A stretch of DNA of 63,000 bases from a virus (IMGVR_UViG_3300042938_000809:1-63000); one strand, 5' to 3'; positions 1 through 54,300 are shown, counted from the stretch's first letter. Notes: generated by a model not told the origin, from the sequence alone. Numbers and translations are program-made.

Positions 1-760
1 GGTAATCAAGGACTTGAGAGGGATCAACGTTGTCAACTAATTTCTTAATTGCTTGCTTTTTTAATTCTGAAACTCTTACATAAGCACTATTTCCTTCGAT
101 ATTTAACAGTTCAGCAATAGTAATCGCAGAATGTTTATCGCAGTCTAATCCGTAACTTAATCTTAAAACTTCAAACTCACGATGATCTAAATGCCTCTTG
201 AGCAAACCAGTTAAGTAGATATTCATAAGATCTATATTATAACCTTCAGATAAATCTGGAATCTGATATAACATGTTATCCTCGTTATCGTCTTCCATCT
301 GTTCATCTACACTTAAGAATATTGAATTAAAGAACATTGCAACCATTTCATGGCTTTGGCCATTATCTTTACGCATTTCAATTAACTTATGTTCTGGAAG
401 TTTTATGCTGCCTCGATATATGTCTATATCTCTTCTAATTGAGCCTTTAATTCTTTTTGATAGAAATGACTTAATAGTTTTTTCTGGATCATTAGAATCA
501 GTTATTGTTGGCCATTCAATTTTATCAACGGCTAGTATTAAACCTTTAGACCCTGCTTGAATAAGATCTGTAATATCTAAGACTCCTGATGCTTGTGTAG
601 TTGTTGAAAACTTTTTAGCGATATTTTCCACTAAAGGAAGAAACTTAACGATCAATTCATCTCTAGTATATTCGTCCCAGAATTTACCATCGATGCGACC
701 CATTGACTGTTTAATATCTTCCTTATAGCGGATATAATTTTGTATATTATAACTTTTCAT
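1..760 (-). CDS. Phage-encoded sigma-70 family factor (3' end outside window)
   Basis: Reading the minus strand from the ATG at 758-760 gives an open frame of at least 253 codons that runs off the left edge. An N-terminal stretch (about residues 30-105) contains LPLVENIAKKF and DLIQAGSKGLILAVDKI, which match sigma region 2 (core binding and -10 recognition). The last 55 residues contain HREFEVLRLSYGLD followed by a helix-turn-helix and SELKKQAIKKL, the layout of sigma region 4. An acidic linker (about residues 145-155) separates the two. The ATG follows directly on the TAA stop of the upstream KTSC gene, so translation is probably coupled. It would redirect host RNA polymerase to phage promoters. 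Which promoters it reads is inference; the 33-bp elements of this arm and the late genes are both candidates. Confidence 0.78.
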   Translation of the reverse strand, partial: MKSYNIQNYIRYKEDIKQSMGRIDGKFWDEYTRDELIVKFLPLVENIAKKFSTTTQASGVLDITDLIQAGSKGLILAVDKIEWPTITDSNDPEKTIKSFLSKRIKGSIRRDIDIYRGSIKLPEHKLIEMRKDNGQSHEMVAMFFNSIFLSVDEQMEDDNEDNMLYQIPDLSEGYNIDLMNIYLTGLLKRHLDHREFEVLRLSYGLDCDKHSAITIAELLNIEGNSAYVRVSELKKQAIKKLVDNVDPSQVLDY

Positions 761-3008: not shown

Positions 3009-3255
3009 TGTTTTTAGTTGTTTGTTTGTTTATATTAATATTATCAGTTGTTGTTCGTGTTTGTTTTGTAAGACTATTATCGTCTAATTGTTCATTATAT
3101 TCTTCTATAGTGAAGTTTAATTTAACATTATGTTTTCTATCGCAAATTTCATTGCAATATAATGCTTGAGTAAATCCTCTATTTATAATCTTACTGCAGC
3201 AATGACATAGTGTTGCGCCATTACCATTATTAAACTTATGAATCGGTTTCATCAC
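2995..3255 (-). CDS. Small zinc-ribbon-like protein
   Basis: 86 residues. An early CHCC cluster and a later CNEIC with a flanking histidine (residues about 18-40) resemble a treble-clef or zinc-ribbon pair. The C-terminal third is Thr/Asn/Lys rich and low in complexity; this part of the gene overlaps promoter element 1, so its sequence may be constrained by the promoter. It overlaps the following gene by 14 bp and the preceding one by 20 bp. A DNA- or RNA-binding role is inference only. Confidence 0.6.
   Translation of the reverse strand: MMKPIHKFNNGNGATLCHCCSKIINRGFTQALYCNEICDRKHNVKLNFTIEEYNEQLDDNSLTKQTRTTTDNININKQTTKNNGKN
3039..3071 (-). promoter_or_regulatory. 33-bp promoter-like element, copy 1
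   Basis: Minus-strand element with TTACA at the upstream end, CACGAA in the middle and TGATAATA at the downstream end. It lies 31 bp before the start of 2607-3008 and inside the 3' end of the preceding gene. One of 13 copies of identical length. Confidence 0.75.
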
Positions 3256-3439
3256 GTCTACCTATTGCCGCAAAATAAAATTCATCATTATCAAATACTA
3301 TTGCGGGGACACCGTCTTTTGAGTAGTGCCTTCTTAAGTATAATTCTATACTGTCCAATGTATTTTTTACTTCATTAGGGTCTTCTATTGTCATAGACAA
3401 TAACCCTTTAAATGTTAAACTGTAAGTTTCTTCTTTCAT
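3236..3439 (-). CDS. Hypothetical protein
   Basis: 67 residues with a mixed alpha/beta pattern (alternating strands at both ends, helix NTLDSIELYLRRHY in the middle). It overlaps the phosphoesterase gene by 4 bp. No family recognised. Confidence 0.6.
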   Translation of the reverse strand: MKEETYSLTFKGLLSMTIEDPNEVKNTLDSIELYLRRHYSKDGVPAIVFDNDEFYFAAIGRRDETDS

Positions 3440-4113
3440 ATTACTAATATATTACCATTACTACTTAATTTTCCAAATTTTCTATCAGTTACTACTGATC
3501 CATTACTAAAAAATGTATCACATATACTTAACTTCTGCAGTCCAGCATTAATAATGTCGCCGCCATTGTGTATATGACCAAATAAATGATATGCGGGTTG
3601 AACTTCTAATAACTTATTAAGCAAAGACTTATCACCGCAACATTCTAATTGATGATCACGGTTTTCAGACTTGTCTAGAATGCCTTTAGGAGGCCCATGC
3701 GTAACGACAATGTCGGTATTATCGTGTATAGCATCGCGCCAGAATCGGTCAAGTTTATTACGGTCTCTCATAAAAGACCAGTTGCCAAAGTTAGGAGTAT
3801 AAGGAGAACCAAATATTTTAAGACCTTCAATGGTAACATAATCATTTTCTAGGTATATAATACCGTTGTCTTCAAAATCTTTTTTAGTTACTAATTTCTT
3901 TTCAATGCTAGAGTCATGGTTACCAGCTACATATATTTTATACTTAGGCGATAACTCTTTATACCAGTCAATGAATTCTCTAACTTCAGGTTCATTATTG
4001 TATGGATCTCTAGGATTACTGCAATCGCCAGAATGTATTACCATATCAATTGCTATAGGTACTTTTAATAAGTCGTGATACGTATGAGTATCGGAGATGT
4101 GCCATATTTTCAT
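3436..4113 (-). CDS. Calcineurin-like metallophosphoesterase
   Basis: 225 residues, a full-length single-domain member of the family. The ordered metal-binding motifs are visible: DTH at residues 8-10, GDCSN near 30, GNHDSS near 66, VVTHGPP near 138, and GHIHNGG near 180, followed by a NGSVV strand. These bind two metal ions and hydrolyse phosphomono- or diesters. The closest bacterial look-alikes are YfcE/MPPED-type phosphodiesterases, and a role in cyclic-nucleotide or nucleic-acid processing is possible but not shown. It carries one GTGTATAGCA motif (3724-3733). It is part of the operon downstream of promoter element 2. Confidence 0.88.
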   Translation of the reverse strand: MKIWHISDTHTYHDLLKVPIAIDMVIHSGDCSNPRDPYNNEPEVREFIDWYKELSPKYKIYVAGNHDSSIEKKLVTKKDFEDNGIIYLENDYVTIEGLKIFGSPYTPNFGNWSFMRDRNKLDRFWRDAIHDNTDIVVTHGPPKGILDKSENRDHQLECCGDKSLLNKLLEVQPAYHLFGHIHNGGDIINAGLQKLSICDTFFSNGSVVTDRKFGKLSSNGNILVI

Positions 4114-4114
4114 A

Positions 4115-4300
4115 TTATTCTTTTTTATAAAAATCTTTTTCTTCTAAAAATTCCCTGAAGCCTTCAACAATAGTTCTTTCTTGAAATGTAACGCCAATTA
4201 GTAAGGCATAGAATGTATCTATATAATCACCAATTGAAACATCATCATGATCAAATTCTGTTGTGTGTGTTTTTCCGTAACTTTCTATTGTAATTTTCAT
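4115..4300 (-). CDS. Hypothetical protein
   Basis: 61 residues, beginning with two beta strands (MKITIESYGKTHTTEF) and ending in a charged helix. It overlaps the upstream gene by 4 bp and precedes the phosphoesterase by one base. The pattern is common among small phage proteins of unknown function. Confidence 0.6.
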   Translation of the reverse strand: MKITIESYGKTHTTEFDHDDVSIGDYIDTFYALLIGVTFQERTIVEGFREFLEEKDFYKKE

Positions 4301-4491
4301 AATCTATTATCTTTTTCTATTAATTCTAATATATAACTCCATACTTTTTGTTCAAATATATCTCGCTTTTTTAATTGCTCTTGTCTATCTGTATCCATTT
4401 TCCAATATACATCATTATCATTAACTATTCCTGTCATTGATGCTAATTTAGCCCATACTTTATAAGCTGCTGCTTCTTTAATTTCTTGCAT
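4297..4491 (-). CDS. Hypothetical protein
   Basis: 64 residues, helical, with charged and aromatic residues and no cysteine or membrane segment. It overlaps its neighbours on both sides (14 bp upstream, 4 bp downstream), consistent with coupled translation. No family recognised. Confidence 0.6.
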   Translation of the reverse strand: MQEIKEAAAYKVWAKLASMTGIVNDNDVYWKMDTDRQEQLKKRDIFEQKVWSYILELIEKDNRL

Positions 4492-4963
4492 AATTATGTC
4501 TTGTTATTATTTGTTCATTACTATTTCGTACGTTAACTTTTTCAGCTTCGTAATAATTCCAGTAAGCAGTTACACTATCGCCAGGAACTTTGTATTCATC
4601 AGGCATACATTGAGGCATTGGCGTAGCACCGATGTTTAACATACCACCGGGTACATTACTTAGTACATCTTCACACTTTGTTATAGTTAAATGCTTTTTT
4701 CCATAACGTTTAGTATACTCTTCGCCAAGCGCTAACATGTGAAAGTATAACCACGCATAATTGTCAGCGGATTCACGTGCCCATATAGCTGACGGATGAT
4801 TTTTATGGGTTGGCTTGTAAGGTACATTTGCATCATCGCCATCTAATACGTGGTGTGCAGTACATAATAATTGAGCGGATTCGAGGATCATTTTTACAAC
4901 GTGTTTATTGTACATCATTGTAGCCGCTTTGTCAGGGTCTTTGTCTAAATAAAAAATGTTCAT
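4478..4963 (-). CDS. Conserved phage protein of unknown function
   Basis: 161 residues from the ATG at 4961-4963. An upstream in-frame extension exists but crosses promoter element 2 and is rejected. The opening MNIFYLDKDPDKAATMMYNK followed by HVVKMILESAQLL is a pattern I recall from many unrelated phages, always as an uncharacterised protein. Further conserved-looking blocks are HPSAIWARES, NYAWLYFHMLALG and the PMPQCMPDEYK turn. Several histidines and acidic residues could form an active site, but none can be assigned. First gene after promoter element 2. Confidence 0.7.
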   Translation of the reverse strand: MNIFYLDKDPDKAATMMYNKHVVKMILESAQLLCTAHHVLDGDDANVPYKPTHKNHPSAIWARESADNYAWLYFHMLALGEEYTKRYGKKHLTITKCEDVLSNVPGGMLNIGATPMPQCMPDEYKVPGDSVTAYWNYYEAEKVNVRNSNEQIITRHNYARN

Positions 4964-4980
4964 AGTTTGTTTGTTTATTA

Positions 4981-5013
4981 TATTATCAAAGTTAATTCGT
5001 ATCCGGACTGTAA
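4981..5013 (-). promoter_or_regulatory. 33-bp promoter-like element, copy 2
   Basis: Minus-strand element with TTACAG, GGATACGAAT and TTTGATAATA in order. Its downstream end is 17 bp before the ATG at 4963, giving a very short leader. It lies between the tmRNA 3' end and 4478-4963. Confidence 0.8.
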
Positions 5014-5031
5014 GACCGTGTATAGCATTAG

Positions 5032-5345
5032 TGGAGGCGGGGAGATTCGAACTCCCGTCCAAACAACTTTGGTTATTACAATTTATACAGCTTATGGGGT
5101 TAACTAGTCAGTTAACGTTTCCACCACTCTGTTTAATCTAACAGAGAAATCTTTCGATGCTACGCCGCTATAAGCCCTTTGACATCTGCGTTAATCAATG
5201 AATACACTTTGCTCATGTTAGCGTTAACTTGGTCAACATCTAACGAAATTACTTGGTTGTCATTTATTAAATTCACCTTAGTTTACAGTTATCTCTCTGG
5301 CTGATTGTAATAATTAGTGGTTGCCTGTCAAATCCAGTCGCCCCC
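5032..5345 (-). ncRNA. ssrA: tmRNA (transfer-messenger RNA), phage-encoded
   Basis: The 5' end reads GGGGGCGACTGGATTTGACA, the typical tmRNA start. The 3' end has the T arm (GACGGGAGTTCGAATCTCCC) and the acceptor strand CGCCTCC followed by A. The seven-pair acceptor stem includes the G3-U70 wobble that marks alanine identity. A 10-bp P2 stem (TTATTACAAT with ATTGTAATAA) joins the two halves. About 314 nt makes it compact, with only two clear hairpins after the coding part. A frame ending at TAG (5160-5162) gives a tag C-terminus ADVKGLIAA, similar to the usual ALAA proteolysis signal. A competing earlier start, GGT GAA, would give only five codons, so the tag start is uncertain. No own promoter is seen; it follows the GP88 gene. 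Confidence 0.88.
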
Positions 5346-5423
5346 TGTACGGGATTTTTGTCGATCTCTCTGAAGTTACCCCGTGCCTCTTCAGTTCATT
5401 CAAGCGCTACTTGACCTCTTTCT

Positions 5424-6032
5424 TTAATGTATGATTAACCCTACTTTGTTAGTCTTGTTAAACCATTTAGTAGCATATAAATCAATCTCGCTTGTATCTA
5501 CATATCCGAACTTAAGTAGTTCAATACTATTACTGAAGATTCTTGCATGACGATCAACTTCTGTATTGATCATGTGCTTTTGTTTACCAGACATACTATA
5601 AATGATGTCGTAATTTTCAGGTAAAGTTATTTCTTTAAGCAACTCAACCATGTTGGTGTAACTGTAAAACCTAACGTCGGGATTAGCTTTAGCAATTTCA
5701 ATCCACTTTTGTAGATATTCTCTGCTGTAGTAATCGCCGGAGTCGTGAACACGCACATATTGTGGTTTTCGCTTTTGAATTTCCGCATTCATCTCAACTA
5801 TGAAATCTGATGTTTTGGTTAATTCATATCGTCTCTCGAACGCTGGTTTTACATTACTCCATGTATACGCGCTTTTTCTAGCATAACAGAACTTAATACA
5901 TTCGTCAGCCATTGGGCAAGTTAATTTTCCTGTAATTGATTTGTATGCAGGTATTCCGAAGTTGAATACTTTAAGACCTAGTACTTTACTAGTCTTTTTT
6001 AATTTTGAATTCTGTGTTAATAAGTTAGCCAT
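5424..6032 (-). CDS. GP88-family phage protein
   Basis: 202 residues from the ATG at 6030-6032. The longer frame reaching 6140 would cross the promoter element and the tRNA-like gene, so it is rejected. The core KVFNFGIPAYKS, then CPMADECIKFCYARKS, VRVHDSGDYYSREY and RFYSYTNMV match the gene-product-88 family of mycobacteriophages and other phages. The spaced cysteines in CPMADECIKFC suggest a metal or Fe-S site; the biochemical role of the family is not known to me. It is the only protein gene between promoter element 3 and the tmRNA, so the two may share a transcript. Confidence 0.8.
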   Translation of the reverse strand: MANLLTQNSKLKKTSKVLGLKVFNFGIPAYKSITGKLTCPMADECIKFCYARKSAYTWSNVKPAFERRYELTKTSDFIVEMNAEIQKRKPQYVRVHDSGDYYSREYLQKWIEIAKANPDVRFYSYTNMVELLKEITLPENYDIIYSMSGKQKHMINTEVDRHARIFSNSIELLKFGYVDTSEIDLYATKWFNKTNKVGLIIH

Positions 6033-6049
6033 AGTTGTTTTGTTTATTA

Positions 6050-6082
6050 TATTATCAATTATTATTCGTATTCGTTTTGTAA
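6050..6082 (-). promoter_or_regulatory. 33-bp promoter-like element, copy 3
   Basis: Minus-strand element with TTACAAAACGAATACGAAT and TTGATAATA. Its downstream end is 17 bp before the GP88 start. It separates the GP88/tmRNA unit from the tRNA-like genes. Confidence 0.82.
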
Positions 6083-6091
6083 TAGTATTTG

Positions 6092-6163
6092 GGGATCCGG
6101 CAGGAATCGAACCTGCATCGCTCAAGTTATTATGAGTCATGTTGCCATTTTCACTACGTATCC
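6092..6163 (-). tRNA. tRNA-like gene, possibly tRNA-Met(CAT), irregular
   Basis: A clear T arm (GCAGG, TTCGATT, CCTGC) is followed by the acceptor strand CGGATCC. The matching 5' strand GGATACG pairs at six of seven positions. A short D stem GTG/CAT can be drawn, and the sequence CTCATAA looks like the anticodon loop of elongator tRNA-Met. However, the bases flanking that loop do not pair properly; the best alternative is a four-pair stem with an eight-base loop. The discriminator would be C. It may be a decaying tRNA, a tRNA with a non-standard anticodon arm, or a tRNA mimic. Total about 72 nt. Confidence 0.5.
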
Positions 6164-6263
6164 ATTTTGTAGGATATCGCTAAACCTACTATGAATGGCC
6201 TATTCATATTCACCTATTATAGTTGCATTCTAAACGAGAAACTATAGTGTACGATTTTTTTGA

Positions 6264-6412
6264 AGCAAGGGCAGGACTCGAACCTGCACCGCATCCGCAC
6301 TCCTGCGTTGATCAATTTTTTTATTAACGTGAGGATCGCTTAACCTCAGTGCAGTTTTTTTGTGTCTACCTTGAAAGAAACTTTAGATTTCTAACTATTC
6401 CACCACCTTGCT
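6264..6412 (-). tRNA. Expanded tRNA-Leu-like RNA, 149 nt
   Basis: A perfect seven-pair acceptor stem (AGCAAGG with CCTTGCT) encloses a standard T arm (GCAGG TTCGAGT CCTGC) and a leucine-type D arm start, TGGTGGAAT, later resumed by GGTAGACAC. About 25 extra bases forming an AGAAA/TTTCT hairpin sit inside the D loop. In place of a simple anticodon arm there is a longer structured region with GCACT/AGTGC closing two inner hairpins (TGAGG/CCTCA and a CGTT/AACG arm with an A7 loop). No ordinary anticodon loop can be named. The insert is far shorter than a group I intron. It could be a tRNA with insertions, an unspliced precursor, or a tRNA-like RNA with another role. Confidence 0.5.
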
Positions 6413-6436
6413 AACCGACCGGGGTCACCCCAATCC

Positions 6437-6679
6437 CTAATCCAATAATACCATATAAGCATCAGGATTTGCACGTCTAAACCAATTCAATGCTTTGACA
6501 AAGGTTTGATCTTGTTTTCCTATATACACACAACCCATAATGAAGTCATACATACTTAATTCTGCAGGTGTTAAACCTATACTTGCACCACTGAACGGGT
6601 TAGTAACAACGCCGCCGTCAGTGTATAGCATTCCGTTAAACCACTTTGGTAACGGTTGTTCTTTAGTTTCTTTTATCAT
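6437..6679 (-). CDS. Conserved small phage protein
   Basis: 80 residues. The blocks LPKWFNGMLYTDGG, VTNPFSGASIGLTPAELSMY and LNWFRRANPDAYMVLLD form a pattern I recognise from many phage genomes as a conserved uncharacterised protein. No catalytic motif is evident. It lies 3 bp after the stop of 6682-6909, at the end of the operon from promoter element 4. It contains a GTGTATAGCA motif (6621-6630) read in a different frame from most others (Met-Leu-Tyr-Thr). Confidence 0.72.
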   Translation of the reverse strand: MIKETKEQPLPKWFNGMLYTDGGVVTNPFSGASIGLTPAELSMYDFIMGCVYIGKQDQTFVKALNWFRRANPDAYMVLLD

Positions 6680-6681
6680 AA

Positions 6682-6909
6682 TTATAAATCAGCAGTTAGA
6701 CAAATTCTTGTATCATTGTTTTTCCCTTCAAGGGCTAAAGTATTAGCGTTCCATGTTAATATTACGCCTAAATTCTTTGCAATTTCTAATGTTTTACGGT
6801 TTAAATTACCTTGTAATTCTAATCTATTTTTCCATAAAGTTACTACATAAAATTCATCAATATCATCATAAGGCATTGCTGTTAATTTGCATAATTCGTC
6901 TGAAATCAT
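6682..6909 (-). CDS. Hypothetical protein
   Basis: 75 residues, mixed alpha/beta, with one Trp in the FYVVTLWKNR strand and another in ILTWNANTLAL. It overlaps the upstream gene by 4 bp. No family recognised. Confidence 0.62.
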   Translation of the reverse strand: MISDELCKLTAMPYDDIDEFYVVTLWKNRLELQGNLNRKTLEIAKNLGVILTWNANTLALEGKNNDTRICLTADL

Positions 6910-7103
6910 TGTTTGTGTTTTTTAAGGGTTAAGTCGTCTACTGTGTTTGTTATTTCTTTTACCATTTGTTCTAAGTAAGCAACAGTAAATAAACTGCGCT
7001 TGCCTTGCTCTTCTAATTCGTTAATATCATTACTCCAATCTTTAAGTAATACTTGTAATCCTTCTTTTAAGAACCACGCTTCCTGACCATTTAATTTTCT
7101 CAT
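6906..7103 (-). CDS. Hypothetical helical protein
   Basis: 65 residues, predicted helical throughout, basic at the C-terminus. Its ATG is 25 bp downstream of promoter element 4, so it is the first gene of that unit. No family recognised. Confidence 0.65.
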   Translation of the reverse strand: MRKLNGQEAWFLKEGLQVLLKDWSNDINELEEQGKRSLFTVAYLEQMVKEITNTVDDLTLKKHKQ

Positions 7104-7128
7104 AGTTGTTTGTTATTAGTTACATTAA

Positions 7129-7161
7129 TATTATCAATTGTTATTCGTATCCATTCTGTAG
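7129..7161 (-). promoter_or_regulatory. 33-bp promoter-like element, copy 4
   Basis: Minus-strand element with CTACAG (first base changed), GGATACGAAT and TTGATAATA. It overlaps the last codons of 7134-7415 and lies 25 bp before 6906-7103. Confidence 0.78.
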
Positions 7162-7415
7162 AACTGATCTAACACTAGCTTCTCAAGCTTCTCTAATAAT
7201 TCGTCATCAAGATCGTTGTCATCAAAGAGTATAGTTATTTCTTCGTCACGTTCGTATTTACCGCCACGTACAGTTAACGTACCAGTATATTCATCGCCTT
7301 CAATTGTTACTTCGCCGCCAACAAATGTTACTTCTTCAGCGTCTAAAATTACATCAAAATAATAATGGTCTACTGTTCTGCTGGAATGGTGGCTTATGTC
7401 TACTATATCTTTCAT
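7134..7415 (-). CDS. Hypothetical beta-rich acidic protein
   Basis: 93 residues with a run of alternating strands (VTFVGGEVTIEGDEYTGTLT) followed by a very acidic helix. The final codons (YRMDTNNN) lie inside promoter element 4, so part of the C-terminus may reflect promoter constraint. It overlaps the upstream gene by one base. No family recognised. Confidence 0.62.
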   Translation of the reverse strand: MKDIVDISHHSSRTVDHYYFDVILDAEEVTFVGGEVTIEGDEYTGTLTVRGGKYERDEEITILFDDNDLDDELLEKLEKLVLDQFYRMDTNNN

Positions 7416-7651
7416 TATTTTACTACTTTTATAAATTGTCCGTTTTTATCGTATAATATGTTTAATTCTAATTCGTGATCTACTTTGTCGATCATTGCGT
7501 TAATATCTTGGAATTGTAAACCTGCAGAGAATTGTTCCGCTGTTAGTTTAGAACCGGCACAGTGTATAGCATAGTCATACAAGAGTTGCGGGTTGATATT
7601 TTTGTCATTGCGCATTGCAATCCATCTACTTTTTATTGCGTCTTTTACCAT
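7415..7651 (-). CDS. Hypothetical protein
   Basis: 78 residues, helical N-terminal two thirds and a C-terminal strand pair. It carries the GTGTATAGCA motif at 7562-7571 as Ala-Ile-His. Overlaps the upstream small gene by 26 bp. No family recognised. Confidence 0.6.
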   Translation of the reverse strand: MVKDAIKSRWIAMRNDKNINPQLLYDYAIHCAGSKLTAEQFSAGLQFQDINAMIDKVDHELELNILYDKNGQFIKVVK

Positions 7652-7802
7652 AAAATAATTCTATTCTTAAATAATTATTATACACTCTAGTATATGCTTC
7701 AGTCATTTTCTCATTACTACAATACTCTACATTTTGTATTGTATTCCGCATCCACGTATTAAACTTATCAGTTTCTTTAATTGCTAATTGCTCTATAGTC
7801 AT
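7626..7802 (-). CDS. Hypothetical 58-residue protein
   Basis: Starts at the ATG at 7800-7802, which shares bases with the TAA stop of the preceding gene, and ends at a TAG at 7626-7628. The product is helical and charged, beginning MTIEQLAIKETDKFNTWMRN and ending in a basic KRRNKK tail. Coupling by a TAATG junction and the absence of another explanation for this interval support it as a gene. Confidence 0.55.
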   Translation of the reverse strand: MTIEQLAIKETDKFNTWMRNTIQNVEYCSNEKMTEAYTRVYNNYLRIELFYGKRRNKK

Positions 7803-8050
7803 TAGTATTTTTCTTTAATTTCTGTTAATGTTAGGTTATAATGATTCCATAATTTAGTTCTACTAAATGCACTCGCTTTAGCACCGTATGAAGACTTCAT
7901 TTTCGTTTTGATTTGTTTATAGTCATCGCTATTAAACTGCTTGCACTTACCGTCAGTATTTACTGCATTGATACGGTTTGCTCTATTGCGCGCTTTCTTT
8001 TCTTCAAGATATTGACACGCTTCTTTCATATTGTTCGCTATTACTATCAT
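7802..8050 (-). CDS. Hypothetical basic protein
   Basis: 82 residues from the ATG at 8048-8050, which overlaps the TAA stop of the upstream gene. A longer start at 8092 would overlap that gene by 43 bp and is less likely. The product is very basic in its first half (EEKKARNRANRINAV) and could bind nucleic acid. No family recognised. Confidence 0.6.
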   Translation of the reverse strand: MIVIANNMKEACQYLEEKKARNRANRINAVNTDGKCKQFNSDDYKQIKTKMKSSYGAKASAFSRTKLWNHYNLTLTEIKEKY

Positions 8051-8241
8051 TAGTCTTTGATTATATAAGTTAAACCGTTTAAATTGAACCATTCAGAATA
8101 TCCGTCACGATCGTTTTCTGCATCGAACTTGAAACCGAATTTTTGTGGTAGATCACCGACAAGATATGGCGTGTATAGCACACCGTTTAGTTTAATAAAA
8201 TTGTTCTTTAAAAACTTGATTGATTTTTTTTCTTTGTTCAT
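8050..8241 (-). CDS. Hypothetical protein
   Basis: 63 residues, Lys-rich start, then NGVLYTPYLVGDLPQ and an aromatic C-terminal half. The VLYT segment is encoded by a GTGTATAGCA motif (8171-8180). First gene after promoter element 5, 25 bp downstream of it. Confidence 0.62.
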   Translation of the reverse strand: MNKEKKSIKFLKNNFIKLNGVLYTPYLVGDLPQKFGFKFDAENDRDGYSEWFNLNGLTYIIKD

Positions 8242-8266
8242 AGTTGTTTATTGTTGGTTACATTAT

Positions 8267-8299
8267 TATTATCAAATCTAATTCGTATTCGTTCTGTAA
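8267..8299 (-). promoter_or_regulatory. 33-bp promoter-like element, copy 5
   Basis: Minus-strand element TTACAGAACGAATACGAAT then TTTGATAATA. It overlaps the 3' end of 8278-8496 and lies 25 bp before 8050-8241. Confidence 0.82.
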
Positions 8300-8496
8300 G
8301 GGTGTTGAGCTATTAATTCTTTCGCTATTTCATCATGAATTTCTTCGATCATTCTAAGTATGTGGTATGACTCACGTGCTTGGTGATTGTCATTACATCT
8401 TAAGGCATCAGCGAGCACATCCGTATGCTCGTCTCTTAAATGGTCAATAGCCACTTGAATTACATTAGCTTCTCGCTTTGTTATAGTTATAACCAT
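8278..8496 (-). CDS. Hypothetical helical protein
   Basis: 72 residues, starting with a strand MVITITKREA and continuing as two helices rich in His, Asp and Glu (DHLRDEHTDVLADAL, HILRMIEEIHDEI). The last codons (YRTNTN) lie within promoter element 5. No family recognised. Confidence 0.62.
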   Translation of the reverse strand: MVITITKREANVIQVAIDHLRDEHTDVLADALRCNDNHQARESYHILRMIEEIHDEIAKELIAQHPYRTNTN

Positions 8497-8501
8497 AGTG
8501 T

Positions 8502-8747
8502 TTAGTCGTTTAAGTATTCAGTTAAAGCATAGTTAAATGCAGCTTCTAATAAATCAAGTTCACAAATTTCGTCAATTCTTTTATTAACTAATTCACATTC
8601 AAGAGCAGTGAATATAGGCTCGTCACTTCTGTCGATCACTTCAGACGGCTCGTCTTCAAAGTGAAATAATTTATCATTCAATACTAGATTGTCGACGAAA
8701 GACTTCATATCAGCTAAAGACTTAATTTGATTGTTTAAAAACTGCAT
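8502..8747 (-). CDS. Hypothetical acidic protein
   Basis: 81 residues, acidic and helical, with no motif that I can place. Its ATG is 25 bp downstream of promoter element 6, so it opens that unit. Confidence 0.62.
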   Translation of the reverse strand: MQFLNNQIKSLADMKSFVDNLVLNDKLFHFEDEPSEVIDRSDEPIFTALECELVNKRIDEICELDLLEAAFNYALTEYLND

Positions 8748-8772
8748 AGTTAGTTTGTTTTAGTTACATCAA

Positions 8773-8805
8773 TATTATCAAATACAATTCGTATTCGTTT
8801 TGTAA
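8773..8805 (-). promoter_or_regulatory. 33-bp promoter-like element, copy 6
   Basis: Minus-strand element TTACAAAACGAATACGAAT then TTTGATAATA, among the closest to the family consensus. It lies just after the stop of 8811-8972 and 25 bp before 8502-8747. Confidence 0.84.
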
Positions 8806-8810
8806 GAGTA

Positions 8811-8972
8811 TTATATTGCCATAATGTCGGTGCAATCATAGTCCTCCCAGTCTAATACAATTTCTGCTTTTCCGTATTGTTCGCTAACAATATCAATTGC
8901 TGATTGCTCGTCAACCGCATCAATGTATAGCACTCTAGATGCCGTCTCTGTAATTCTAATTTTATATTCCAT
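8811..8972 (-). CDS. DpnD/PcfM-like small protein
   Basis: 53 residues. The pattern of a strand (YKIRITETASRVLYIDA), a helix (EQSAIDIVSEQYG) and a C-terminal strand with VLDWEDYD matches the DpnD/PcfM C-terminal family, small proteins found on mobile elements and phages with no known activity. It carries a near-copy of the 10-bp motif (8923-8932, first base A) encoding Val-Leu-Tyr-Ile. The ATG is one base from the stop of the upstream gene. Confidence 0.62.
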   Translation of the reverse strand: MEYKIRITETASRVLYIDAVDEQSAIDIVSEQYGKAEIVLDWEDYDCTDIMAI

Positions 8973-8973
8973 A

Positions 8974-9147
8974 TTATTGTTGTTTAATTAATTTCGGTTT
9001 CCACAGTCCTATTCTATTAGACGAAAATAACTTTCCGTAGTCTTGTGAGTATCTATAATGAGCAACTTCGTTAAGTGCTTTATAGTTGTATACTTCAATA
9101 TACACACCATTGCCGTAATATTCTAATACTTTATATCCTTCTTTCAT
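8974..9147 (-). CDS. Hypothetical 57-residue protein
   Basis: Starts at the ATG at 9145-9147 and ends at a TAA at 8974-8976, fitting tightly between two other genes. The product is rich in Tyr and aromatic residues (KVLEYYGNGVYIEVYNYKAL) and ends in a basic tail. No family recognised. Confidence 0.58.
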   Translation of the reverse strand: MKEGYKVLEYYGNGVYIEVYNYKALNEVAHYRYSQDYGKLFSSNRIGLWKPKLIKQQ

Positions 9148-9150
9148 AAC

Positions 9151-9375
9151 TTAATCTTTACTTGTTGTTGTACCCTCAAAGAATGAGTGGATTGCTTTAT
9201 CTTCTGCTTCTCTAATAGCCTTGTATTTCTCAACATTAGTTATTTTTTCTAATAACCATTCTTGTATATCTTCTCTACTGTCAGAGTGATATTCTTGGTT
9301 CATCCACTTTGATCGGTACATAGCTTGTATGGTACCATTACGTAATGTTCTTGTGTATTCAACTATATCTTCCAT
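9151..9375 (-). CDS. Hypothetical protein
   Basis: 74 residues, starting MEDIVEYTRTLRNGTIQ and followed by a charged helical part. It lies 3 bp before the next gene and one base after the upstream stop. No family recognised. Confidence 0.6.
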   Translation of the reverse strand: MEDIVEYTRTLRNGTIQAMYRSKWMNQEYHSDSREDIQEWLLEKITNVEKYKAIREAEDKAIHSFFEGTTTSKD

Positions 9376-9376
9376 A

Positions 9377-9484
9377 TTATCGTCTCATAGCGTAACCCGC
9401 CGCTTTGCCCGCTTCACGGAGTTCATAATTAATTCTTAGTAATATTAACTTAATTGCATCGGAAAATCTAATCTTTCTTCTCAT
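9377..9484 (-). CDS. Very small basic protein, 35 residues
   Basis: Begins MRRKIRFSDAIKLILLRI and ends GKAAGYAMRR. Its ATG overlaps the TAA of the upstream gene. The high Arg content and amphipathic helix suggest nucleic-acid or membrane contact, but this is inference. It fills the interval without other coding explanation. Confidence 0.5.
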   Translation of the reverse strand: MRRKIRFSDAIKLILLRINYELREAGKAAGYAMRR

Positions 9485-9651
9485 TATATACTGTTTATTT
9501 GATTAATAGTAAGCGAATTTCTCCACATTTGTATGTATTCTTCTTCTTCAGGGTATTCAACCAAAGAACCTTTGTTATTAGAGTTCATAAATTCTTCGCC
9601 AAACATATAGGCAAAGTACTCTTTTTCAGTCATTCCATAGTAATCTTGCAT
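9484..9651 (-). CDS. Hypothetical acidic protein, 55 residues
   Basis: Runs from the ATG at 9649-9651 to a TAA at 9484-9486. It begins MQDYYGMTEKEYFAYMFGEE and contains a run of glutamates (YPEEEEYIQMW). It is the first gene after promoter element 7, 30 bp downstream. No family recognised. Confidence 0.58.
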   Translation of the reverse strand: MQDYYGMTEKEYFAYMFGEEFMNSNNKGSLVEYPEEEEYIQMWRNSLTINQINSI

Positions 9652-9681
9652 AGTAGAATTAGTTTTTGTTAGTTACATTTA

Positions 9682-9714
9682 TATTATCAAATCACTCTCG
9701 TATTCGTTTTGTAA
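9682..9714 (-). promoter_or_regulatory. 33-bp promoter-like element, copy 7
   Basis: Minus-strand element TTACAAAACGAATACGAG then TTTGATAATA. It would drive five short genes down to 8811. Confidence 0.82.
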
Positions 9715-9769
9715 AGGTATATAGTTTGTTTACTCATTTTTTTAGTAGAACAGGTGCTACCCACTGTAT

Positions 9770-10042
9770 CTAGATGTTCAATTGGTAAGAACAGTAAGCC
9801 CAGATTGCTTGGTTTATACGGTCAAGTTCGCATTCACCACTGAGATATACGTTAACAGCGTTGTAGAACTTAGTTAATTTAGAGTCGGCGTAGCAAAATT
9901 CTCTTTTAAACTCGTCAAGTTCTTCGCCTTGCATGAAATTTAACCCGACGATCTCGTCTTTTACTTTTATAATATAGACATAGCGGTCATCTTGGTTGCA
10001 CCACACGATCTGTTTACTCTCGACTAATTCATATTCGCTCAT
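9770..10042 (-). CDS. Hypothetical protein
   Basis: 90 residues with an N-terminal beta region (IVWCNQDDRYVYIIKVKDEI) and a C-terminal helix pair. Three cysteines are scattered without a metal-site pattern. It is the only gene of the unit behind promoter element 8, starting 24 bp downstream. Confidence 0.62.
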   Translation of the reverse strand: MSEYELVESKQIVWCNQDDRYVYIIKVKDEIVGLNFMQGEELDEFKREFCYADSKLTKFYNAVNVYLSGECELDRINQAIWAYCSYQLNI

Positions 10043-10066
10043 AGTAGTTGTTTTTAGTTACATCAT

Positions 10067-10099
10067 TATTATCAAACTTCATTCGTATTGGTCTTGTAA
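10067..10099 (-). promoter_or_regulatory. 33-bp promoter-like element, copy 8
   Basis: Minus-strand element TTACAAGACCAATACGAAT then TTTGATAATA, 24 bp before 9770-10042. Upstream of it (10100-10234) there is no gene; that stretch holds two GTATAGCA motifs and a TTAGTTTTTAACTAA inverted repeat. Confidence 0.8.
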
Positions 10100-10234
10100 G
10101 AGTGCCCATGGAGAATAGCGTATAGCATTTTCACCGAAAATAACATAAATACTTAGTTTTTAACTAAAAAGTAGGACGGGGTCTACTCTTCCGACATTAT
10201 TTCAGTGCCAGGCCGGTGGTGTATAGCAAAAAGA

Positions 10235-10278
10235 GTGACATTAGCTGCTTATAACTACTAATAGCAGGCTAACGTCGC
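10235..10278 (+). promoter_or_regulatory. 44-bp inverted repeat, copy 2
   Basis: Begins GTGACATTAGCT and ends AGGCTAACGTCGC on the plus strand; the arms GACATTAGC and GCTAACGTC pair with one G-U. It lies between the 27-residue gene and the region upstream of promoter element 8, with no plus-strand gene directly after it. Same length and end sequences as copies 1 and 3. Confidence 0.75.
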
Positions 10279-10291
10279 ACTTTTCTAATCA

Positions 10292-10375
10292 TTATTTTTT
10301 ATTCAACTGGTTTATTTCTGATGCTATCATCCATAAAGGCCATGCTATAATAATACTTGCAATTATTGTTATCAT
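10292..10375 (-). CDS. 27-residue membrane peptide
   Basis: ATG at 10373-10375, TAA at 10292-10294. Almost the whole product is one hydrophobic helix (ITIIASIIIAWPLWMIAS) followed by a basic NQLNKK tail, which would place the tail in the cytoplasm. Similar tiny membrane proteins are common in phage early regions. It is short enough to be chance, but it lies in line with the minus-strand operon from promoter element 9. Confidence 0.42.
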   Translation of the reverse strand: MITIIASIIIAWPLWMIASEINQLNKK

Positions 10376-10402
10376 ATTATTTATTTTTAAGTTGTTTTAT
10401 CA

Positions 10403-10615
10403 TTATTTCATATCCTCATCATATACAAACTTACCAGTTTCGATCCAGTTTAGCACTTCTTCTTTGTATGCGTTTTCTACATGCAATGTTACGTCTGGAT
10501 ACTGGCTGTCGGCTTGATGTATCGTGTATTGTTCACGGCTCCGATCAGAGTTGAACCCTTCAGAGTGTATAGCACCTGTTATCAGGTACCATACAAAGAT
10601 TATTTTTGTTATCAT
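10403..10615 (-). CDS. Hypothetical protein with N-terminal hydrophobic segment
   Basis: 70 residues. The first 18 (MITKIIFVWYLITGAIHS) look like a signal peptide or membrane anchor with a possible cleavage site near residue 16-18. The remainder is soluble and mixed. Its ATG is 3 bp after the stop of 10619-10762. It contains a GTGTATAGCA motif (10565-10574). Confidence 0.58.
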   Translation of the reverse strand: MITKIIFVWYLITGAIHSEGFNSDRSREQYTIHQADSQYPDVTLHVENAYKEEVLNWIETGKFVYDEDMK

Positions 10616-10618
10616 ATA

Positions 10619-10762
10619 CTATCTTTCTTGTTCTAGTATAAATCTGATTAAGTTGCTTAGTTTAAGTTGATCTGAATAGCTCAGGATCATGAATTCAGTT
10701 GTACGTGTGTACTTGTAGCCGTGCTTAGTTGCTAATTTGTAAGCTAGATTTTGTAATTGCAT
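10619..10762 (-). CDS. Hypothetical 47-residue protein
   Basis: Runs from the ATG at 10760-10762 to a TAG at 10619-10621. The product is basic and helical, beginning MQLQNLAYKLATKHGYKYTR. It starts 20 bp after the tRNA 3' end and is the first protein gene behind promoter element 9. No family recognised. Confidence 0.55.
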   Translation of the reverse strand: MQLQNLAYKLATKHGYKYTRTTEFMILSYSDQLKLSNLIRFILEQER

Positions 10763-10781
10763 AGTTATTTATTTAAGTTAG

Positions 10782-10861
10782 TAGTCTGGACAGGATTCGA
10801 ACCTGTAAGGATTTCTCCACGCGAAATCATCACGCTTGTTTACCATTTCCAACACCAAACC
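10782..10861 (-). tRNA. tRNA gene, identity uncertain
   Basis: A seven-pair acceptor stem forms between GGTTTGG and CCAGACT with two G-U pairs. The T arm is ACAGG TTCGAAT CCTGT. The D arm TTGGAAATGGTAAACAA resembles leucine tRNAs. A five-pair anticodon stem GCGTG/CGCGT with loop ATGATTT would give anticodon GAT (Ile), but base 37 would then be T, which is unusual. A short variable hairpin GGA-GAAA-TCC points to a class II tRNA instead. About 80 nt. It lies 16 bp downstream of promoter element 9. Confidence 0.68.
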
Positions 10862-10877
10862 TTTTGTTTTACATTAT

Positions 10878-10910
10878 TATTATCAATTGTACTTCGTATT
10901 CGTTCTGTAA
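10878..10910 (-). promoter_or_regulatory. 33-bp promoter-like element, copy 9
   Basis: Minus-strand element TTACAGAACGAATACGAAG then TTGATAATA, 16 bp before the tRNA. A GTGTATAGCA motif abuts its upstream end (10911-10920). Confidence 0.82.
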
Positions 10911-10943
10911 GTGTATAGCATTTTTGCTTGCGCTTAAAGCGGC

Positions 10944-11297
10944 CTATGTTAGGCTCGCTTCAGCATCTTGAAATTCTTTTGAATTTTCATCAATTTCGAT
11001 CTTTTCAATCTTAGCTAGATGTCTGACATTACTTGGCATATCAGTTGATTGCGACCAGTATTGTCTTTTAATCCAACATGGCATTATACTTAGTTTAGGC
11101 AACATTACTTTTAATACTTCATCATGATTGTAAGTTACTTTCTGATTTTTGTTGTTGATGAAAGTTATTACTTGATTTCGGCCAAGCCAATTCTTTCTGA
11201 CTACAAAGTTAGCTCGTTCTATTGGCGGATATATTAAAGCCAATTCTTCAGTTGATAATTTCGCAATTGCTTGTTGTAATAATTCTTGATTGTTCAT
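10944..11297 (-). CDS. Hypothetical protein
   Basis: 117 residues. A helical start (LLQQAIAKLSTEELALIYPP) is followed by a beta-rich part (VITFINNKNQKVTYNHDEVLKVM) and an acidic tail. Basic and aromatic residues cluster around residues 75-90. No family recognised. The leader from promoter element 10 is about 50 bp, longer than in other units. Confidence 0.62.
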   Translation of the reverse strand: MNNQELLQQAIAKLSTEELALIYPPIERANFVVRKNWLGRNQVITFINNKNQKVTYNHDEVLKVMLPKLSIMPCWIKRQYWSQSTDMPSNVRHLAKIEKIEIDENSKEFQDAEASLT

Positions 11298-11349
11298 AGT
11301 TATTTAATTTAAAGTTATATTATTATTAGTTGTTTGTTATTTACATTAT

Positions 11350-11382
11350 TATTATCAAAGTCTATTCGTATTGTTATTGTAA
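11350..11382 (-). promoter_or_regulatory. 33-bp promoter-like element, copy 10
   Basis: Minus-strand element TTACAATAACAATACGAAT then TTTGATAATA, upstream of 10944-11297. It follows directly on the stop of 11389-11568. Confidence 0.8.
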
Positions 11383-11388
11383 GAACTT

Positions 11389-11568
11389 TTAGACTATTTT
11401 ATATTTTAATAAATTTCTATCTAAAACTTTGTCTACAAATTCTAGATCTTTTGAATTTATATATAAGATATTTTTTGAAGTTCTAATTGTAAATTTTAAT
11501 TTATTTGAATTAATTAATAATTGATAAATTGATTTTTTGAAATTTTGATTGAATTGAAGTTTGATCAT
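11389..11568 (-). CDS. Hypothetical basic protein, 59 residues
   Basis: ATG at 11566-11568, TAA at 11389-11391. The gene is extremely AT rich and encodes a Lys/Asn/Ile-rich product beginning MIKLQFNQNFKKSIYQLLI. Promoter element 11 lies 25 bp upstream, the usual spacing in this arm, which supports it as a real gene. Function unknown. Confidence 0.58.
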   Translation of the reverse strand: MIKLQFNQNFKKSIYQLLINSNKLKFTIRTSKNILYINSKDLEFVDKVLDRNLLKYKIV

Positions 11569-11593
11569 TTGTTGTTGTTTTTAGATTCATATT

Positions 11594-11626
11594 TATTATC
11601 AAATACTCTTCGTGTTCAGACTGTAA
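11594..11626 (-). promoter_or_regulatory. 33-bp promoter-like element, copy 11
   Basis: Minus-strand element TTACAGTCTGAACACGAAG then TTTGATAATA, 25 bp before 11389-11568. Confidence 0.78.
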
Positions 11627-11633
11627 AGATTTT

Positions 11634-11655
11634 TGCTATACGCGTTGCTATACGC
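11634..11655 (+). repeat. Two tandem TGCTATACGC motifs
   Basis: TGCTATACGC at 11634-11643 and 11646-11655, separated by two bases and opposite in orientation to all copies left of 10.92 kb. They lie between a promoter element and a non-coding stretch (11656-11735) that contains GGATCC and GGGTCC-like stem arms around CTGTTACAG. Confidence 0.8.
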
Positions 11656-11735
11656 AGCCACGGCTCCGCCTGCCAATTCCATCTAGTGGAGGAAAAGGAT
11701 CCCTGTTACAGGACCCAGTAGCTGGCCAGTATTAT

Positions 11736-11909
11736 TTAGCTGGCATAGGTTTCGATTATAAACTGTAGCCAGTCGATCTGATTATTATTATCGTTCAGGA
11801 CCCCGTAGCAATCTGCTATCTGATCTTCCAGATCTTCAGATAATTTTAATCTGTTATCTGATTTTAATAAATTTAATAATTCTGTTAATTCTGATTTTTT
11901 AAAATCCAT
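11736..11909 (-). CDS. Hypothetical acidic protein, 57 residues
   Basis: ATG at 11907-11909, TAA at 11736-11738. The first half is Leu/Lys/Asp-rich helix (MDFKKSELTELLNLLK), the second contains QIADCYGVL and an Asn run. It starts 25 bp downstream of promoter element 12. No family recognised. Confidence 0.58.
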   Translation of the reverse strand: MDFKKSELTELLNLLKSDNRLKLSEDLEDQIADCYGVLNDNNNQIDWLQFIIETYAS

Positions 11910-11934
11910 TTTATATATATTTTATATTCAGATA

Positions 11935-11967
11935 TATTATCAGAATCACCCCGTGCTCAGACTGTAG
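11935..11967 (-). promoter_or_regulatory. 33-bp promoter-like element, copy 12
   Basis: Minus-strand element CTACAGTCTGAGCACG then TTCTGATAATA, the most divergent copy (GGG instead of GAA in the middle), 25 bp before 11736-11909. Confidence 0.7.
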
Positions 11968-11972
11968 GGAAA

Positions 11973-12006
11973 TGCTATACGCAAATGCTATACATTTGCT
12001 ATACAC
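11973..12006 (+). repeat. Three clustered TGCTATAC motifs
   Basis: TGCTATACGC at 11973-11982, TGCTATACAT at 11986-11995 and TGCTATACAC at 11997-12006. All are in the same orientation, non-coding, just upstream of promoter element 12 as read on the minus strand. Confidence 0.82.
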
Positions 12007-12041
12007 CTTCGGTGCTTGCGCACCTCCGGTTTATCGTTACG

Positions 12042-12245
12042 TTAGTTCAGAGCAGGATCGAATTCATCTGAGTCAACCCATGCCCAGTACGTAGCTCCTT
12101 GCCGAGTCCTAGACCAGTCACACATACCGTTAATCTCAGCATTAGTGTCTATGCAATGTTGCACATGCTCCTGACCGAATTGCCATCTAGACTCCTCGAT
12201 CATGTCGAGTCTCGTTTGCGGATGTAAATCATTTATTCTTTTCAT
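12042..12245 (-). CDS. Hypothetical protein, 67 residues
   Basis: I start this gene at the internal ATG 12243-12245 (MKRINDLHPQTRLDM) because it forms an ATGA overlap with the stop of the upstream small gene. The longer frame to 12329 would overlap that gene in another phase. The product is rich in Trp and charged residues (TYWAWVDSDEFDPALN at the C-terminus). No family recognised. Confidence 0.6.
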   Translation of the reverse strand: MKRINDLHPQTRLDMIEESRWQFGQEHVQHCIDTNAEINGMCDWSRTRQGATYWAWVDSDEFDPALN

Positions 12246-12355
12246 GCGATATATTCGTTTAATTGTTTCAATTGTTCGTTCGTTAGGCTCGATCTCCAGG
12301 CTTGCACGTATGCTTCGTCTTCTTGACATAATAATTCTAATTCTTCTTCTGACAT
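12242..12355 (-). CDS. Hypothetical acidic protein, 37 residues
   Basis: Runs from the ATG at 12353-12355 to a TGA at 12242-12244. It begins MSEEELELLCQEDEAYVQAW and is predicted helical. It starts 26 bp downstream of promoter element 13, the normal spacing, and overlaps the next gene by 4 bp. It is the first gene of the minus-strand arm. Confidence 0.58.
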   Translation of the reverse strand: MSEEELELLCQEDEAYVQAWRSSLTNEQLKQLNEYIA

Positions 12356-12381
12356 CTTGTAGTATTTATTTGTTACATATA

Positions 12382-12414
12382 TATTATCAAAACCACTTCG
12401 TGTTGGTGTTGTAA
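12382..12414 (-). promoter_or_regulatory. 33-bp promoter-like element, copy 13
   Basis: Minus-strand element TTACAACACCAACACGAAG then TTTTGATAATA. The outermost copy, at the edge of the non-coding junction. Confidence 0.78.
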
Positions 12415-12997: not shown

Positions 12998-13041
12998 GTG
13001 ACATTAGCTAGTTATATATAATAGTAGTAGGCTAACGTCGC
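12998..13041 (+). promoter_or_regulatory. 44-bp inverted repeat, copy 3, upstream of the plus-strand block
   Basis: Begins GTGACATTAGCT and ends AGGCTAACGTCGC, with TATATAATA in the centre. It ends 51 bp before the ATG at 13093, so it is placed to control transcription or translation of the first late genes. Confidence 0.76.
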
Positions 13042-13092
13042 TATTTTAAATTGTTAATTTACTATGTGATTATAACCTTATAAACAAACTAT

Positions 13093-51300: not shown

Positions 51301-54300
51301 GCTAAAAAAGACATTGCTAATGCTAGTGAAGCTACTATCGCTAAATTCACAAAAACAATAAATACATTTTACGATAATAAAATAAATTTAGCAGAAGCAG
51401 ACTTTTTAGAAGAAACGTTAACGTTGTTATCTGAAGCTATATCAAAAGGCGATATAAAATATAATGAAACTTTTTTCACAAAGTTAGGTGATTTAATTAG
51501 AAGAGTTTTCCAAAACTACGGTTTAAAAGTAAATTTTTCTACAGGGCAAGATGTATTCAACTTTGTAAGAGACTATAATAAAAGTTTTGAGAAAGGTAAA
51601 TTTACAGACGCTTTTAAAGCTTTAGCTGTTAAAGGCGAGTATAAACCAACTAGCAATAAGAATGCTAAAGTAGGAACTGAAAGTATCAAAGCGTCAAAAT
51701 CTTTAGAACTAAAGAACCAATTAAAAGCGTTAGAAGAAGAATACGACGATGGTCTTGGCGAAATGCAGGAAGAGGAATACTTACCAACTAAAGCAAATCT
51801 TGAATTAAAATTAAAAGCCGCGTTAAAAGCAGAAGCATCTAGCGGTGTAGTTGAAAAGCCAAAGAAAGAAGAGACAGAAGAAGATGAAGTAAAGGCAATC
51901 ATAAGAAATGAAAAAGGAACTATAGCTTCTGATAAAGTACAAAAAATATATGATGAAAAAGGCGTACAAGGAGCCAATGAAATTATAAAATTATTTAAAC
52001 CTATAACGGCAAAAATAGTTCAGAAACGTAGAGATGCTCCTGGCTTTAATGAAGAAGAGCTTACTAAAGAAATAGAACTTGGAGCAGGTGGATTATTTGA
52101 TTTAATTAGAAAATTTGAAGCTAGCAAAGGCGTTCCTTTAGCGGCTTATATTAATAAAAATCTACCTTTAAGGGCAATTACTGCATCTAGAAGGGTATTA
52201 GACAAAGAGTTTACCAGTGATGTTGAAACAGAAGTCAATGTAAAAGCAACTGAAACTGCGGATCAAAATATGACCGATAGGGTTGCTGAAAAACCAAAAT
52301 ATAAAGATGCATTAGAATCTAATCTTTTTGAACCAGAAGTACTAGAAACAGCAACAAAAAAGATAATAACTATAGTTAGGACTTTGCGTTCTAAAATAGA
52401 CGAACCAGTTACCTTAAACCGTACTGTAACTCCGTTTATAGCTGAGATTAGGGATGAGGTTGGTAAGCAACTTGATATTGATATAAAAACAATGTTAGGT
52501 GGCAAGAAAGATGGTGTACTTAGAAAAGAACTTTTAAGAACTAAACGTTATATTCTAGAAAACATGACCACCACATGGTTAATGGGTAAAGACGGGCAAG
52601 GCGGAATACCTCAAGCAATACAAAAACGTATTGATGGCAAATGGGTTAATTTCCCTGATTGGGTCGGGCAAAAAATAGATAGAGAAGCAATGTCTACCGA
52701 TTTAGCTGGAAGAACTTCTGGTGCAGAATTGGTTAGAAGATTGCCTAATGTATTTAACAATGTACCTAACGAGGATTTTTTAGCGCAAATAATCGGTCCT
52801 GATGGCAATCCAATCAGGGGTAGAAAAGAATCGGTTTCTAAAGCTATGGCTGAAGAATCAGCTATGGATATTATTAAAAATGATCTTGAAAACGACGGTC
52901 CAATATCTCAAGCTATCATAGCTAACCAAGAAAGGATTGGCGCTAAAATAACAGAATCTTTTGGAACAGAATTCGCTAGACAAGCTGAAAGAGGTAATAT
53001 AAAAAATTCTGAAAGACTTAAAAAAGGGTTTAAAGTATCTATTTCAAGATTAACAGACTCAATAATAGACGCTAAGGGTGATGTTGGATTGCAATCTATT
53101 GCTATTAAAAAATGGTTAGCATCTGACGGTAGGTCTATAAGAACCAAATCCTGGGCAATTTCAGGAAAATCTAAAGAGTTTACAACAAATGCTGCTTTGA
53201 TGCAGAAGATATTAATACCAGCGTTTAAAAGCTCATTAACAACTCCGTTTGTAATAGATAATGAAAATTACTTTCATTTAGTTGATGTTGAAAATGGCCA
53301 GACTATATATTACGGTGATGAACCTGTAAAATTATGGATGCAGATATCTGAAATAAAAGCTAACTGGGAAGACAATAAAGAAAAAGTTAGTCTGGAATCT
53401 AAATATGCTTATAGTCAAATAATAGAATTAGTAAATTGGGCTAAAAATAAAAAATTAGGTATTGAAGACTTTAAAGCTTATTTGTTTTTATTAAGTCAAG
53501 ACCAAAGAGGGCTTGTACGTAAGTTAGGTTCTCCTGGATTAGGGTTTATTGGTAAAATTGAAAACCCATACCTAGAACACAATCCTCCGCGATTTGATAT
53601 AATGGAGAGCATAGTTGATTTGTATACTGATTCAAACGGGATGACTGAGGAAAAATTAAAAGATATAATCTCAAAATCAAATGTTAACCTAATCCCCGGT
53701 AAATTAAATAAATTATTACCTAAGTATAAAAAAGGCGATAATAGAATGGAGGACCCTAAAGTTTTGCTATACATATCCAAAGCTCTTGAGTCTGGCCAAT
53801 TGATCACAGGTATCGAGTCTGAGTATGGTTCAATAGAAAGATTTGAAGCGCTGGTAAAAGAAGCAAAAACACCTACTGAATTACAAGAGGACACAGACGG
53901 TACAGCTAGAATTAAATCCAGTAAAAAATTAAGTGAAGACTTTAATAAAATAATAGAGGTGAACACCGGGATGGAAAACTTTAAAGTGTTTTCTGACATC
54001 GTTGCAAAAAGAAGAGGTGCTGGTATTGGAAAATATAGATTTTTCCTACCGCCATCAGCCGAAGATTTTACAGGTTTATTATATGACTTTTTAGGAAAAG
54101 GTAAAGCGGGAGAAGAACAGTTTGCATTCTTTAAAAAGAACTTAATAGACCCATACGTAAAAGGTACTGCCTTAATTGATTCAGCTAGACAATCTATAAA
54201 AAGAGATTACAAAGCATTGTTAGCGGCTTTCCCCGAGGTTAGAAAGAAATTAGGCAAAAAAATACCAAGTGGAGATTTTACTTATGACCAAGCAATTAGA

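Follow-up and report, generated by a model that had tools for sequence, protein, structure and literature searches.

The DNA analyzed here, hereinafter the window, is a virus record of 63,000 nt (IMGVR_UViG_3300042938_000809:1-63000) that belongs to a phage presumed to infect Bacteroidota. Its plus-strand block consists of structural genes. The capsid-type gene (33279-34679) has relatives in several isolates, namely Maribacter phage Panino, Manatee Spring phage, the Flavobacterium elemo phages and Cellulophaga phi38:1, as well as in many uncultured viral contigs. The left arm, on the minus strand, comprises small genes, a tmRNA, a tRNA-Ile, a pyrimidine-dimer glycosylase-like gene and a metallophosphoesterase, and its final gene in the direction of transcription codes for a sigma factor (760-2). 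The right arm carries the genes for RNR, thymidylate synthase, MazG and a primase/helicase. Within the left arm, the region 6091-6430 holds a tRNA whose anticodon call is unusual, next to tRNA-like sequence that carries long inserts. One of the structural proteins (37284-43148) matches the C-terminal domain of the crAss muzzle protein (Pfam PF25729), which hints at a kinship of the tail with that of crAss-like phages. Membership in the crAss-like phages themselves was rejected, as the crAss-type polymerase motif DFDxD was found neither in the large ORFs of the window that were scanned nor in the giant virion protein described below. Contigs of the same phage lineage (L509, L510, L512) occur within Bacteroidota MAGs (Sphingobacteriales WC_5, IN_BCD_1) and offer weak hints to the host.

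Table 1. Putative promoter elements and associated features in the window
Feature	Coordinates	Strand	Remarks
Phage sigma-70-family factor, regions 2 and 4	2..760	-	Last residue(s) cut by contig end; proposed element reader
Promoter element (putative)	3039..3071	-	Last copy before the sigma operon
Promoter element (putative)	4981..5013	-	Before pyrimidine-dimer glycosylase-like gene 4478-4963
Promoter element (putative)	6050..6082	-	Before GP88-family gene ending at 5424
Promoter element (putative)	7129..7161	-	
Promoter element (putative)	8267..8299	-	
Promoter element (putative)	8773..8805	-	
Promoter element (putative)	9682..9714	-	
Promoter element (putative)	10067..10099	-	
tRNA-Ile gene	10781..10861	-	Directly downstream of element 10878
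Promoter element (putative)	10878..10910	-	16 bp upstream of tRNA-Ile 5' end
Promoter element (putative)	11350..11382	-	Start codon 52 nt away
Promoter element (putative)	11594..11626	-	
Promoter element (putative)	11935..11967	-	Weakest copy
Promoter element (putative)	12382..12414	-	First after divergent region; 37-aa ORF starts ~26 nt downstream
Sigma-domain-2-like fold (predicted)	51925..52275	+	Inside giant virion protein 48304-56130 (2608 aa)

The left arm is punctuated by 13 copies of a conserved element (Table 1), whose positions, minus-strand orientation and uniform length had been given in a preliminary description and were all recovered. The register of that description needs correction in one respect: the gap before TTGATAATA is of six bases and not five, the window copies reading TTACA-N6-ANACGAA-N6-TTGATAATA. 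A pattern with the five-base gap recovered none of the 13 window sites and gave only single matches in viral contigs. Searches with TTACA-N6-ANACGAA-N6-TTGATAAT, allowing up to three mismatches, recovered 12 sites and nothing else in the window, where 0.07 would be expected by chance, and none of 100 shuffled sequences reached 12 sites. The copy missed by this pattern, at 11935, has a matrix score of 30, as against 37-45 for the other copies, and the next best matrix site in the window, which lies within a tRNA (6140), scores 17. When distances are measured from the end of the 33-mer, 11 of the 12 copies facing protein-coding genes lie 17-30 nt from the start codon and the twelfth, at 11350, lies 52 nt from it; the copy that faces the tRNA is 16 nt from the tRNA 5' end. 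The matrix scan also agrees with the earlier statement that neither the plus-strand block nor the right minus-strand arm contains a copy. Since related genomes often possess a further copy 2-3 kb past the sigma gene, a stretch missing from this 63-kb fragment, the contig ends account in part for its restriction to the left arm.

Pattern scans of viral contigs with the correct register recovered at least 118 stretches with the element, many of them with several copies in one direction. Related genomes were also searched, as the preliminary description had proposed: of 50 uncultured phage records (40 of them selected by presence of the element, and 49 with the window capsid gene), 43 contain it, and a reversed control pattern occurs in none. 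The 368 distinct sites among the matches listed yield a consensus of about 43 bp, TTACA-N8-ATACGA-N7-TTGATAATATAAATGTAAC, in which the blocks TTACA, ATACGA, TTGATAATA and TAAATGTAAC succeed each other and are followed by an A-rich leader. Hence, the 33 bp first assigned to the element hold for a rigid 33-mer in the window, whereas the real element is longer, with positions 34-43 (TAAATGTAAC) conserved in the relatives. Its spacing is strikingly constant: TACA precedes GATAATA by exactly 25 bp in 167 cases, no other offset accounting for more than 10; ACGA precedes it by 13 bp in 157 cases, GTAAC follows it by 12 bp in 85 cases, and GATAATA is itself nearly invariant. Position 26 of the element is T, C or A depending on the lineage. 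The outer parts of the element form an inverted repeat (TTACA...TGTAA). Within a genome the copies nearly always point the same way and lie on the non-structural strand; in the related records the start codon that follows is most often 24-27 nt away. A search for further elements preceding a tRNA recovered none beyond the copy at 10878. No description of this element was found in the freely accessible literature searched.

These features indicate that the element is in all likelihood a promoter. GATAATA, which lies 24-27 nt ahead of start codons and 16 nt ahead of the tRNA, corresponds to the -10-like box of a sigma-70-family promoter with a predicted start site downstream of it. The position, the strand bias and this box support the earlier proposal of a promoter-like element marking one expression class, and the copy next to the tRNA favours a promoter over a translation signal. 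The genes that it would control are probably early: past the divergent region the array comes first, ahead of the sigma and replication genes, so that the early class suggested in the preliminary description is plausible, its basis being gene order.

The element differs markedly from the promoters of the phylum presumed to contain the host. The Bacteroidota sigmaA promoter combines a -7 box (TAnnTTTG) with a -33 box (TTG/TTTG) located about 17-23 bp upstream. Short A-rich leaders devoid of a Shine-Dalgarno sequence are common to both, but neither box is present in the element consensus, in agreement with the mismatch noted earlier, and three or four other blocks at fixed spacing are found instead. 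It is also unlike the alternative motifs of F. psychrophilum, i.e. sigma54 -24/-12, TAnnTTGY and the ECF CGT motif (PMC9723704). Panino, the elemo phages and phi38:1 share with the window the related capsid gene, GroEL and other genes but lack both the element and the sigma factor, and Panino carries host-type promoters (TTTG-N-TAnnTTTG; 12 versus 2 expected). In the element-bearing genomes such promoters are at chance level, with few of them intergenic. As the element nearly always occurs together with a viral sigma factor, these viruses seem to have swapped the host promoter code for one of their own. A scan of 84,980 prokaryotic species genomes detected multiple copies of the element only on two contigs, both with phage genes of this lineage, which makes it unlikely that it represents a host regulon or a host promoter borrowed by the phage. 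Single matches in Bacteroidota chromosome contigs (L502, L507, L508) were judged by eye to be probable coincidental matches to sequence coding for a peptide such as LQSEYEAYLIIG, and were set aside.

The product of the sigma gene is a candidate for the reader of the element. This protein of 253 aa contains regions 2 and 4 in the order typical of the sigma-70 family. Profile searches against the PDB recovered SigA/RpoD (E 4e-9), Foldseek matched sigma factors over its full length, and Pfam detected region 2 in 28 of 31 homologs and region 4 in 17 of 31. Its -10-reading residues differ from those of E. coli sigma70 in an alignment made by eye. The gene is present in 39 of the 50 records, and all 39 carry the element. 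Because the element guided the choice of 40 of the 50, the co-occurrence tells us something mainly about sigma, which played no part in the selection; it is correlative and may only reflect common descent, with both marking one clade. The element occurs without sigma in four records, of which three are contigs of 53-58 kb that are maybe fragments, and the fourth lacks the capsid gene and has one element only. Element and sigma are both missing from four isolated relatives, and the phage collection searched contained no isolate with this sigma. In 15 of 15 genomes examined most or all of the array is upstream of the sigma gene, with an extra element past the gene in about half of them, and in one genome (G017) an element occurs 8 bp before it. 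These sequence relationships point to a reader that would be the phage sigma, or a factor carried in the virion, rather than the host holoenzyme alone; the chances that the phage sigma itself reads the element appear about even. In usual sigma-70 promoters the -35 and -10 boxes are separated by about 17 bp, give or take 1. Here TTACAA and GATAAT are separated by an unvarying gap of about 20 bp, and this rigidity could suggest another kind of reader.

The element is most likely a lineage-specific early-type promoter served by the host core polymerase and the phage sigma, with presumed early timing and presumed sigma dependence. The full reading, namely early promoters of a Bacteroidota podovirus lineage used by the host core polymerase together with the phage sigma, is one that we hold with as much doubt as confidence. 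The phage sigma would confer a new specificity on the host core RNA polymerase, which would contact three to four blocks (TTACA, ATACGA, TTGATAATA and often TGTAAC) over about four helical turns, with TTGATAATA acting as the -10 region and TGTAAC lying near the start site. Transcription would begin just past the element, generating short A-rich leaders or directly the tRNA. The array would drive small genes, probably for host takeover, and its last copies would drive the operon holding the sigma gene, resulting in positive feedback. Because the sigma gene itself sits in the element-driven block, something else would have to set off the initial round of transcription, unless sigma is carried in the virion or the element is leaky. 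This arrangement is reminiscent of the promoters of SPO1 gp28 and T4 gp55, in that a phage sigma-70-family factor could redirect the host core and the element contains a -10-like AT-rich box. However, those factors serve middle or late genes, whereas here the candidate sites and the sigma gene share a block presumed to be early, and the motif is longer and stricter.

Alternatively, the host holoenzyme might read the element as an early promoter, either alone or aided by another early activator from the phage, and the phage sigma might serve later genes as an early product that activates replication or late genes, as in a cascade of the SPO1/T4 type. The array comes first after the divergent region, and the sigma gene is near its 3' end, the usual site of an early-made regulator; moreover, the late-strand motif ACGTAATA, with 20 intergenic copies on the late strand versus 3 on the early strand in the related genomes, could be a target of the phage sigma. 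Yet ACGTAATA failed as a promoter model upon refinement, and the dissimilarity of the element from both the TAnnTTTG/TTTG boxes and the F. psychrophilum motifs (PMC9723704), as well as the lack of a multi-copy class of it among the bacterial genomes, render this alternative unlikely.

Another potential reader is encoded by the gene for the giant virion protein, present in 26 of 26 relatives searched, which occupies the position of the structural gp101 of phi38:1 and whose product is weakly similar to gp101. A segment of 117 aa in this protein (pLDDT 80) is predicted to adopt a sigma-domain-2-like fold. Foldseek searches of the PDB with it recovered sigma factors (domain 2) as nearly all top matches, with a probability of up to 0.99 and E-values of 0.1-1 that are not significant; VIA-align gave its highest Z-score, 9.6, to E. 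coli sigma70; and the best PDB matches of its profile were mostly sigma region 2, at sub-significant levels. The sigma matches to the modelled segment cover domain 2 only, and Pfam found no sigma region over the whole giant protein, missing the region-2-like part too. Of 32 related records, 16 have the domain at the corresponding position; iterated search found it in 11 of 15 genomes and yielded nothing convincing in the isolates lacking the element. Domain and element do not strictly go together: three genomes with many elements (G017, G018, G023) have a degenerate or undetectable version. If ejected with the DNA, the predicted fold might recruit the host core to the elements, with the free sigma taking over later, and would thereby supply the missing first-round trigger; RNA polymerases fused to giant virion proteins do exist (PMC10770324). 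Against this stand the absence of a visible region 4 in the modelled segment, the insignificant Foldseek E-values in a situation where helical folds yield chance matches, and the several element-rich genomes without a proper domain. Accordingly modest is the probability we attach to it: as a rival account it appears rather improbable, and hardly less so is the model in which the ejected domain would redirect the host core at once and the free sigma would sustain the circuit. If true, bringing sigma in along with the DNA would add a new means by which viruses start their own transcription; no case of an injected sigma factor was found in the freely accessible literature searched. The systems closest to such a scheme are those with virion RNA polymerases (N4, the crAss-like phi14:2 and Thermus P23-45), which likewise combine dedicated early promoters unlike those of the host with a giant virion-type protein bearing a transcription-related domain. 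The difference is that no RNA polymerase was found here, but a sigma-like fold instead.

The hardly varying spacing of the element could also be explained by an unrecognised phage RNA polymerase reading it, long elements with fixed spacing being typical of phage-encoded enzymes. A search for the T7-type polymerase domain PF00940 recognised the T7 control and nothing in 15 genomes, on which ground a T7-type promoter was rejected. The absence of DFDxD from the scanned ORFs and the giant protein further speaks against this possibility, as does the conserved C-terminal part of the latter, the largest unassigned protein, which matched nothing, polymerases included, when compared directly with PDB sequences. 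We consider a phage polymerase quite improbable. Still less probable is that the element is no promoter but a leader RNA, a translation signal or a protein-binding repeat (partition, packaging), for although it is close to start codons, bears the outer inverted repeat and is often abutted by a second repeat, GTATAGCA, it precedes a tRNA in one case, is nearly unidirectional and upstream of genes, and couples a -10-like box to an A-rich leader.

Transcription start is little known in the non-crAss phages of Bacteroidota. The present results spell out the promoter grammar precisely, with hundreds of sites, and name a candidate for the specificity factor, all within a phage lineage of wide distribution. 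In the reading with host core and phage sigma, the orthogonal promoter/sigma pair could serve a phylum that is poor in genetic tools.

Certain other repeated sequences accompany these genes. The late-strand motif ACGTAATA is often followed by ATAA and often lies 20-70 nt before starts (e.g. 19167 in G017 and 33094 in G034). It is a candidate for a piece of a late promoter; a de novo search for late promoters gave a weak AT-rich model only. An imperfect hairpin, GACATTAGC...GCTAACGTC, occurs twice in the window, in the left arm (10235-10290) and in the divergent region (13000-13045), and perhaps these are bidirectional terminators. The second repeat, in the form TGCTATAC(A/G)C, is about 2- to 8-fold enriched in all but one or two of the element-bearing genomes and not enriched in the isolated relatives. 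In the GTATAGCA orientation, 43 of 78 copies are situated 3-39 nt upstream of TTACA, and the window has copies of GTATAGCA/TGCTATAC between 909 and 12890 (e.g. at 5019, 10912, 11634, 11646, 11973, 12420 and 12432), which possibly form the site of an accessory protein.
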